From: Thermococcus henrietii
GTDB lineage: Archaea > Methanobacteriota_B > Thermococci > Thermococcales > Thermococcaceae
Assembly (NCBI RefSeq): GCF_900198835.1
Contig: NZ_LT900021.1
Location: forward strand, 1,798,001 to 1,862,000
Length of the DNA: 64,000 nt
Reading direction: 5' to 3'
Each line of letters starts with the position of its first letter. Position 1 is the stretch's first letter. A program made the translations under genes and the position numbers. A model generated the notes under the pieces. The model was not told the DNA's origin. It was given only the letters and a program-made list of their open reading frames with translations, and made no database searches. This document shows, in pieces, positions 44,635 through 46,797 of the stretch.

Positions 44635-44669
44635 CTTACCCCGGGGTAAGTAACTTACGGTGGGGTAAG
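44635..44669. repeat. Left double-palindrome box of the ATPase cassette
   Basis: The pattern CTTAC-N6-GTAAG, 3 bases, CTTAC-N6-GTAAG occupies 35 bases. The first unit is extended to a perfect 18-bp palindrome (44634-44651). The box overlaps the expected transcription start (TATA-like CCTTATAAC at 44627-44635) and ends one base before the TTG start codon, so it could be an operator, an element end, or both. Confidence 0.85.
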
Positions 44670-45794
44670 TTGCTGTTCGACCTCCAGCCCAAGAGGAGAA
44701 GAGAAGACCTCTACGATAGGGAAGACGAGCTCAGGGAGTTTTCTGAAGCCGTTGAACTCGGAGAAACGCTCGTTCTTCTGCTCGGCATCAGGAGACTCGG
44801 TAAAAGCTCCCTCCTCAACGTTGCCCTTTCCGAATCGGGAAAACCTTTCTCCAAGATTGACGTTCGCTCGCTCTACTTTACCCACGGCTCGATTCCTCAA
44901 GAGTTGCTCGCGAGAAAACTCCTCGAAGGTCTCCTCAAGTCCCTGAAGGGAACGGACAAAGTGCGGGTAGAACTCATGAAAGCCCTCTCAAGGATTAAGG
45001 GGGTTAGAGTTTCGGGTCTTCAGGTGGAGTTTGATGAAAAGCCCGACCTTGCGGAGCTCCTTGAGAGGCTCGACCTCTGGGCCGAGAAAACTGAGAGAAG
45101 AGTTATAATCGCCTTCGACGAGGCCCAGTATCTGAGGCTTTCGGGGATACAGTACGATGGGCTCATAGCGTACGCCGTGGACAACCTGCCGAACCTGACG
45201 TTTGTGCTGACCGGCTCCGAGGTCGGAATGCTCCACGATTTTATCGGACTCGACAACCCCAAAAAGCCCCTCTTTGGCAGGTACGCGAGGGAGATAACGC
45301 TGAAGAGGTTTTCGAAGGAGCAGAGCATGGACTTCCTGAGAAGAGGATTCGACGAGCTTGGAGTAAAGGTTCAGGAGGAGGAAATTGAGAGGGTCGTTGA
45401 GAGGCTCGACGGAATTGTCGGATGGCTGACCCTATACGGCTACCTCAGGGGAGTTAGAACGCTCTCCGAAAAAGAGGCACTCAACGAGCTCTTTGAGAGG
45501 GCCAAAGCGCTTGTCCTCGACGAAATTTCGACCCTTACGAAGTACAGCGCGAGGTACTGGTTCATCTTGAAGGCCGTTGCCCTCGGAAACGATTCATGGA
45601 GCTCCATAAAGGAGTACGTGGAGTTCAAGGCGGGAAAGATAAACGACGCAAAATTCTCGGGCCTGCTGAAGAACCTCGTCAAGTACGGCTACCTTGAAAA
45701 GACAGAGGATGGCTACTCCATCCCCGACCCAGTCGTTAAGGAAGTCATAAAGAAGACCAACTTACCCCCGGGTAAGCTACTTACCCTCCCGTAA
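44670..45794 (+). CDS. Archaeal AAA-type ATPase with C-terminal winged helix
   Basis: The 374-residue protein belongs to the archaeal ATPase family common in Thermococcales: N-terminal DLYDREDELREF, Walker A GIRRLGKSSLLN (about 41-52), Walker B RRVIIAFDEAQYL and a sensor TGSE. The C-terminal 100 residues look like a winged-helix domain (FSGLLKNLVKYGYLEKTEDGYSIPDPVVKEV). The cellular role of the family is unclear. Translation starts at TTG 44670 directly after the left palindrome box, and its last codons and stop lie inside the right box. Confidence 0.85.
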   Translation: MLFDLQPKRRREDLYDREDELREFSEAVELGETLVLLLGIRRLGKSSLLNVALSESGKPFSKIDVRSLYFTHGSIPQELLARKLLEGLLKSLKGTDKVRVELMKALSRIKGVRVSGLQVEFDEKPDLAELLERLDLWAEKTERRVIIAFDEAQYLRLSGIQYDGLIAYAVDNLPNLTFVLTGSEVGMLHDFIGLDNPKKPLFGRYAREITLKRFSKEQSMDFLRRGFDELGVKVQEEEIERVVERLDGIVGWLTLYGYLRGVRTLSEKEALNELFERAKALVLDEISTLTKYSARYWFILKAVALGNDSWSSIKEYVEFKAGKINDAKFSGLLKNLVKYGYLEKTEDGYSIPDPVVKEVIKKTNLPPGKLLTLP

Positions 45795-45795
45795 G
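45761..45795. repeat. Right double-palindrome box of the ATPase cassette
   Basis: The same architecture as at 44635-44669: CTTAC-N6-GTAAG, 3 bases, CTTAC-N6-GTAAG, 35 bases in total. Cores differ (CCCCGG and CCTCCC here; CCCGGG and GGTGGG on the left). It encodes the last residues of the ATPase and abuts the stop codon of the convergent HDAC-like gene. Confidence 0.85.
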
Positions 45796-46797
45796 TCAAA
45801 ACTTCCACCACTCTGACTGTATCTCTTTCACCCTCGCCACCGTTCTAAGGGCCTCGTACGATGGACTGACCGGAACCTCGCGGATTTCCCCGCTGAGGTA
45901 GCCCCTGATGAACGCAGGAAGGCCTTTGTCAAGACCGACCGAGTAGCCACCCTCAAAAATCACCGCGAGCGGATAGCGCGAGAGCGTTGAACCCGCGTAG
46001 GCGAAGAAGAGTTCACTGAGACGAAGCGTCGTCAGGTTCTCGCCGAGGAAGCCGTCAAATCCCGCCGAGACGACCACGAGCTTCGGCCTGAACTGGGCAA
46101 GAACTGGGAGAACAACCTCGTTCCAGGCGTAGATGAAGTCGTCGTCTCCGGAGTAGTGGGGCATCGGCAGGTTGATTTTCGTCCCCTCGGCATTCTTCCC
46201 GCCGACGTCGTGCTCGTAGCCACTCCAGGGGTAAATATCACGCTCGTGAAGGTCTACATGCACCGCGTTGGGGTCGTTCCAGAGTATCTCCTGCGTCCCG
46301 TTGCCGTGATGGGCGTCAAAGTCTATGACCAGAACCTTTCCAGCGAGCTCCTCAGCCGATTTGGCCGCGTAGGCCGCGTTGTTGAAGATGCAGAAGCCGA
46401 GCGTTGAGGCGTTGAAGGCCCTTCCAGATTTTCCGGCGTGGTGGCCAGGTGGCCTGACGAGGGCAAGGTGGAGGCCTCCAAACTTCAGGGCCAGCTCAAC
46501 GGCGAGCCTTGACGCCCCGAAGGCGAGGAGCGAGGCCTCCCACGTGCCGGGGGAAACGTAGGTGTCCGGGTCGAGGTACGAGAAGGTTCTGCTGCTCTCG
46601 CGGACGAGTTCAACGTAGTCCCTTGAGTGGACCTTCAGGAGTTCCTCCTCCGGAACGGGAACCGGCTCGATGGGCTTCCACAGGTCCAACCGCTGGAGGG
46701 CCTTTACTGCCCTCAACAACCGGTCTGGGTTTTCAGGGTGATAGTTCTCGGGTCTGTGCTCGAGAAAAACGGGAGAATAGATAACGGAGAAGGCCAA
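45796..46797 (-). CDS. Histone deacetylase/acetoin utilisation family hydrolase
   Basis: The 333-residue protein has the zinc deacylase motifs LVRPPGHHAGKSGRAF, DFDAHHGNGTQEI and the closing VIFEGGYSVGLD, with the His-His and Asp/His ligands intact. Substrates in archaea may be acetyl-lysine or acetylpolyamines; which is unknown. It starts at TTG 46797 after GGTGAGGGGG, a site overlapping the stop of the TBP gene, so it is co-transcribed with TBP. Confidence 0.9.
   Translation of the reverse strand: MAFSVIYSPVFLEHRPENYHPENPDRLLRAVKALQRLDLWKPIEPVPVPEEELLKVHSRDYVELVRESSRTFSYLDPDTYVSPGTWEASLLAFGASRLAVELALKFGGLHLALVRPPGHHAGKSGRAFNASTLGFCIFNNAAYAAKSAEELAGKVLVIDFDAHHGNGTQEILWNDPNAVHVDLHERDIYPWSGYEHDVGGKNAEGTKINLPMPHYSGDDDFIYAWNEVVLPVLAQFRPKLVVVSAGFDGFLGENLTTLRLSELFFAYAGSTLSRYPLAVIFEGGYSVGLDKGLPAFIRGYLSGEIREVPVSPSYEALRTVARVKEIQSEWWKF

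Follow-up and report, generated by a model that had tools for sequence, protein, structure and literature searches.

An SSO1545-type ATPase gene of Thermococcus henrietii carries paired palindromes on its promoter that are probably an operator for its own winged helix

The window analysed here, a stretch of 64,000 nucleotides of the genome of Thermococcus henrietii, contains an ATPase gene that has iorAB and an HDAC-family gene as neighbours; a further neighbour gene is one which we take to encode TBP. Both ends of the ATPase gene carry the same 35-bp design, CTTAC-N6-GTAAG, 3 bp and again CTTAC-N6-GTAAG, and all four boxes are exact (Table 1), as the preliminary description of this DNA had reported. 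It had also placed the left pair directly before the TTG start and the right pair over the codons for the C-terminus and the stop codon, and the coordinates confirm both placements. The left pair occupies the gap between the TATA box and the TTG start, with position 44669 abutting position 44670. The codons for the final ATPase residues fall in the right pair, with the stop codon TAA at 45792-45794, and the pair ends at 45795 against the stop codon of the HDAC-family gene, which is convergent (45796-46797, minus strand).

Table 1. Coordinates of the promoter, boxes and protein domains at the ATPase locus, counted from the first letter of the window.
Feature	Sequence	Position	Strand	Basis or remark
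Predicted BRE/TATA of the ATPase promoter	GGAAACCCTTATAA	44621..44634	+	Read from the sequence
Left box 1, putative operator	CTTACCCCGGGGTAAG	44635..44650	+	Conserved in all clade-A orthologues
Left box 2, putative operator	CTTACGGTGGGGTAAG	44654..44669	+	G-rich core 44659-44664, also the position of the ribosome-binding site
ATPase gene, 374 aa, TTG start		44670..45794	+	PF01637 ATPase domain and C-terminal winged helix
Winged-helix domain, residues 295-350		45552..45719	+	AlphaFold2 secondary structure; MCM_C winged-helix Pfam match at residues 293-349
Recognition helix, residues 326-339		45645..45686	+	AlphaFold2 model; residue 326 is Asp and tracks the half-site base
Right box 1	CTTACCCCCGGGTAAG	45761..45776	+	Within the coding 3' end
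Right box 2	CTTACCCTCCCGTAAG	45780..45795	+	Contains the stop codon, abuts the HDAC stop codon

Boxes of this kind are rare. With one mismatch allowed, the window has seven matches, four of them exact, against 1.15 expected by chance, and the genome of 2.16 Mb has six exact CTTAC-N6-GTAAG sites and none of a reversed control pattern. Besides the four boxes at the window ATPase, one of these six lies before a paralogous ATPase gene (C1:451423) and one is an orphan (C1:448862). The orphan double box, CTTATGGGGGCGTAAG-TAA-CTTACGGGGGCGTAAG (L001:1482-1516 = C1:448843-448877), has a decayed TATA-like flank and no ATPase gene directly behind it, lies about 1.5 kb from the 3' end of that paralogous ATPase gene, a member of clade A', and is probably a relic. 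Of 94 genomes in the family, 29 contain the 35-bp double box and none matches the control pattern. The preliminary description had raised the question whether the boxes always go with this ATPase family; the double boxes inspected across the genomes do adjoin either a window-type ATPase gene, a paralogue (L032) or what can be recognised as the remains of the locus. In the window genome, neither the clade-A pattern (apart from the relic) was found away from ATPase loci nor the clade-B pattern away from its own gene. The operators look private to each gene and apparently have no regulon.

The encoded protein matches PF01637 (ATPase_2) above the cut-off (E 1.3e-16) and its Walker-type motifs, G-x-R-R-x-G-K and D-E-x-Q, are invariant. 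It is homologous over its full length to the proteins of solved structure 2qen from P. abyssi and 2fna (SSO1545), with phmmer E-values of 2e-71 and 2e-51, respectively. The AlphaFold2 model (mean pLDDT 94.8) has a winged helix at approximately residues 295-350, and Foldseek comparison to 2qen and 2fna (TM 0.83-0.90) gave agreement in both the overall fold and the C-terminal winged helix. Beyond its own family, the solved structures closest in fold are those of Cdc6/Orc1 on origin DNA and of archaeal ORC2, with 13-15% identity; this likeness is at fold level only and no match to the Orc1/Cdc6-specific Pfam family was found at E 1e-3. The protein consists of the ATPase and the winged helix only, and no nuclease, recombinase or transposase domain was found in it. 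NCBIfam contains no family for this ATPase, and a PADLOC search for defence systems gave weak matches only, the best (E 3e-5) to a candidate family. Genomes contain up to about twenty matches to the ATPase family.

All of the approximately 26 close orthologues (clade A) show the same order of TATA, box, 3 bp, box and start codon. Paralogues in the Thermococcales have the same architecture with clade-specific arms, among them CTTGC in clade B, CACCAG in clade C, GTATCG in clades D1 and D2, GTAATG or GTAACG in clade D3 and ACTACTGG in clade E1. A scan of species genomes with SSO1545 alone as query gave no loci; with the family alignment as query, it gave 80 further loci, which span Crenarchaeota, Thaumarchaeota, Bathyarchaeota, Thermoplasmata, an Asgard-type archaeon, Hadesarchaea and two Thermotogae. 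At most of these loci two palindromes touch the start codon; of the two Thermotogae, just one shows this clearly. Nearly all of the 91 Thermococcales and 75 other archaeal homologues have the two palindromes at the same place, and most Thermococcales homologues have a TATA-like element at about -44 to -39. A tandem-palindrome score, which replaced a simple dyad scoring that missed operators abutting the start codon, was 19.1/20 for the Thermococcales and 18.7/20 for the others, against 14.8 in 90 control ORFs (p 5e-28 and 1e-24, respectively). Among the high-scoring operators, the 19-bp period is exact in 79/79 from Thermococcales and 46/61 from others, and the distance to the start codon, as assigned by homology, is 0-3 bp in most. 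The preliminary description had the gene framed at both ends; the left operator is indeed near universal, but the right copy occurs in some clades only.

Two control ORFs reached a score of 20, and both lie next to a site of this kind in front of another PF01637-like ATPase gene. Tandem palindromes (TTTACTTGCAAGTAAATTACTAGTGAGTAA) also precede the start of a DUF234-like PF01637 ATPase gene at L175:6057 (minus strand) and L176:7152 (plus strand), and the self-operator rule may therefore extend to other ATPase_2 families. Triple tandem boxes were observed upstream of a clade-D2 ATPase gene (L099) and at the right end of a clade-A gene (L031:180-233). It seems that the operator can grow by a unit of 19 bp.

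The operators change together with the proteins. Firstly, operator distance rises with protein distance (rho 0.51, 0/999 permutations). Secondly, residue 326, which is the first residue of the recognition helix in the AlphaFold2 model, is acidic in all 41 sequences with C-T half-sites and non-acidic in all 27 sequences with G-T half-sites, a rule that is concordant in 68/68 diverged sequences. For this comparison the half-sites were aligned by their C/G-T step, ignoring the protein, and one locus (L276) could not be placed. A tree that leaves out the winged helix shows four changes, each concordant with the rule, and clade A' is nested in the N/GTA group, with both protein and arms switched. 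Lastly, the T-N-A sequence pairs with GTATC arms in two distant clades. Four changes are too few for the phylogenetically corrected test of the residue 326 code, in which 3/3 supported pairs were concordant (p 0.25), and window-wise partial correlations with the operator reached their maximum in the AAA+ domain, outside the winged helix. Each paralogue appears to have its own arms and a matching recognition helix.

We consider it likely, with a probability of roughly 0.78, that the ATPase is a dedicated autorepressor whose winged helix reads the left double box as its operator. An autoregulatory site bound by the winged helix was one of the two readings offered in the preliminary description, and the promoter position, the family-wide rule, the clade-matched arms, residue 326 and the lack of other genomic sites all argue for it, as far as sequence comparison goes. 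We infer that the ATPase binds the left double box through its C-terminal winged helix, one per half-site arm, and that two dimers or a tetramer probably sit on the two palindromes 19 bp apart. In archaea, transcription starts about 25 bp downstream of the TATA box, which puts the transcription start near or inside box 2. Protein bound between the TATA box and the start codon would cover this start and stop the loading of RNA polymerase, although promoter position as such cannot strictly separate repression from activation. The nucleotide state of the ATPase domain presumably governs operator binding. Several paralogues would coexist in one cell with little cross-talk, since each is predicted to have its own arms and recognition helix. 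The core of box 2 is G-rich on the coding strand in 99/99 operators measured and is best read as the ribosome-binding site. An analogy of this core to the G-string of Orc1 sites was not adopted, because box 2 alone is strictly G-rich, at the position expected for the ribosome-binding site.

The right double box repeats the gene's own operator at the stop codon, a second copy for which simple promoter occlusion does not account. It was found in most Thermococcus clade-A genes, in 4/15 clade-B and 5/7 clade-C genes, in a single A' gene and in a single E2 gene (L185), where the arms are of the clade-C type; one Thermotogae homologue has an inverted partial right copy. Clades D1-D3 and E1 lack the right box, as do the clade-A genes of genera g3 and g5. 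The secondary operator copies that match at least 24 of 36 bases, many of which come from related clade-A genes, all lie at the stop codon (25/25). Several clade-A orthologues stop at a TAA just before the right box; the window lineage reads through that TAA and its protein ends inside the right box. The longest downstream frame is convergent at 25/33 right-box loci versus 29/58 others, a crude and clade-confounded trend. The right copy is about equally likely to be an auxiliary operator, acting in a loop or as a roadblock against the convergent neighbour, or a relic of duplication. That the right box alone is a relic without function, left by a duplication of the operator (for example in a tandem gene copy since lost), has in our estimate somewhat less than an even chance; it keeps the left box as operator and is compatible with autorepression. 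Its patchy distribution over clades and genera, the decayed copies in three genomes (G030, G071 and G058), the three tandem boxes in L031 and its being simply coding sequence in the window lineage are consistent with a relic. On the other hand, several paralogous clades have the right box precisely at the stop codon, each with its own arms, and the box is intact in gene-less genomes (G019, G043, G041 and G070), though these losses may be recent.

It seems improbable that the boxes load replication or segregation factors at their own gene, in an Orc1/Cdc6-like or partition-like way, with autoregulation as a secondary effect. The nearest folds outside the family and the possibility of sites at both gene ends would fit such a role, as would the specific pairing of haloarchaeal Orc/Cdc6 paralogues with adjacent ORB elements, which is the closest precedent in logic (PMC3528665). 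Like Orc1/Cdc6, the family combines an AAA+-type ATPase and a winged helix with inverted repeats that form paralogue-specific sites beside the gene. Unlike those of Orc1/Cdc6, its sites lie on the core promoter and have a fixed 19-bp period, with neither an adjoining AT-rich unwinding element nor a known replication role. Further arguments against are the missing match to the Orc1/Cdc6 Pfam family and the number of family matches, which at up to about twenty per genome would imply many origins. A ParABS system pairs a ParA-type ATPase with the gene of a separate centromere-binding partner; the window ATPase belongs to PF01637 and no ParA/ParB-type partner was found at the locus.

A single-gene mobile cassette, the other reading of the preliminary description, has become very unlikely for this gene. 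It takes the double boxes as recognition ends of an element that is moved or excised by the ATPase or a partner, and the direct-repeat operators at both ends in several clades would suit it. The clade-A gene, however, lies between iorB and HDAC/TBP in most Thermococcus carrying it, which points to one ancestral locus in Thermococcus, and synteny within Thermococcus holds for most clades. Two genomes of genus g3 have the clade-A gene 5.6 and approximately 16.6 kb away from iorB. About half of the clade-A genomes have an extra 3.5-12.6 kb (approximately) between iorB and the ATPase gene (L139, L141, L142, L144, L148-L152, L154 and L155), often with a more divergent type of iorB, and this interval is likely an exchange hot spot. 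A few clades lack common flanks between genomes, notably clade E2, whose similar proteins in four genomes (L110, L178, L179 and L185) share no flanking genes; this clade may be mobile or located in exchanged islands.

The search for empty sites that the preliminary description had proposed gave several kinds. The right box stands alone in six genomes (G019, G043, G062, G041, G070 and G036). The left double box stands alone in G015 (L118, near 4827), where ATPase gene and right box are missing and box 1 has lost 1 bp. Decayed boxes remain in G030, G071 and G058, and other empty loci have no box. In G016 and G022 everything between left box 1 and right box 2 has been precisely deleted; the left flank of 103 bp is 100/103 identical to that of G044 and the right flank of 90 bp is 80/90 identical to that of G042. 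This exact box-to-box deletion could be taken as excision of a cassette, but it looks like what loss by recombination between direct repeats gives. The empty sites look like losses, and no new box-ended insertion was seen among the loci compared. Moreover, the ATPase has neither a nuclease or recombinase domain nor a match among plasmid or phage sequences, and the left box has the place of a promoter operator even in genes without the right box. RAYTs (REP-associated transposases) are likewise single genes that are maintained vertically between palindromes of their own; unlike these, the window ATPase has no nuclease domain and no dispersed genomic palindromes, and its palindromes lie on the promoter.

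Least likely is control at the RNA level by 5' leader hairpins, either protein-bound or self-folding: inverted repeats do adjoin the start codon and box 2 overlaps the position of the ribosome-binding site, but the TATA spacing sets the transcript start near box 2, so that box 1 would stay untranscribed, the pair holds its 19-bp period over archaea, and the two homologue sets together have 35 G/T and 35 A/C arm mismatches, without preference for G.U, which argues for selection on DNA and not on an RNA hairpin.

Autorepression by the ATPase through the left double box would resemble several known systems in part. As in ordinary autorepressors, tandem palindromes lie on the protein's own promoter; unlike these, the protein is an ATPase and not a small regulator, it apparently has no regulon, and several clades have a 3' operator copy. 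Like the STAND-type regulators MalT and IniR, the window ATPase couples a P-loop ATPase to a DNA-binding helix-turn-helix, and the ATPase domain of IniR has been modelled on SSO1545 (PMC5760070). MalT and IniR control other genes and carry sensor repeats, whereas the sites found for the window ATPase are its own only. The SSO1545- and PAB2304-type ATPases (PDB 2fna and 2qen) belong to the same family over their full length, and relatives of both carry the same double operator. In the openly readable literature we found neither a DNA target reported for these two proteins nor a description of operators for the SSO1545-type family, and the operator is a new element.

Autoregulation by a winged-helix ATPase would be unusual in being private, in its 19-bp geometry shared across archaea and in having another operator copy at the 3' end. 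More speculatively, and with considerable doubt on our side, the SSO1545-type ATPases could be an archaea-wide, self-marking and Orc1-like class of DNA-binding proteins, in which each paralogue would recognise only its own promoter (and in several clades its own 3' copy) by a readable recognition-helix code, and binding at both ends could form an ATP-controlled gene loop. They would then be autonomous, possibly selfish, self-regulated units and not regulators of other genes. The finding raises the question why a regulator with many paralogues per genome would control only itself, and how an Orc1-like fold got there. A large ATPase family with solved structures gains a predicted DNA target and a simple rule that can be tested by a one-residue swap, and the pair of palindromes with a 19-bp period on the promoter can be used for finding both members of the family and their sites.
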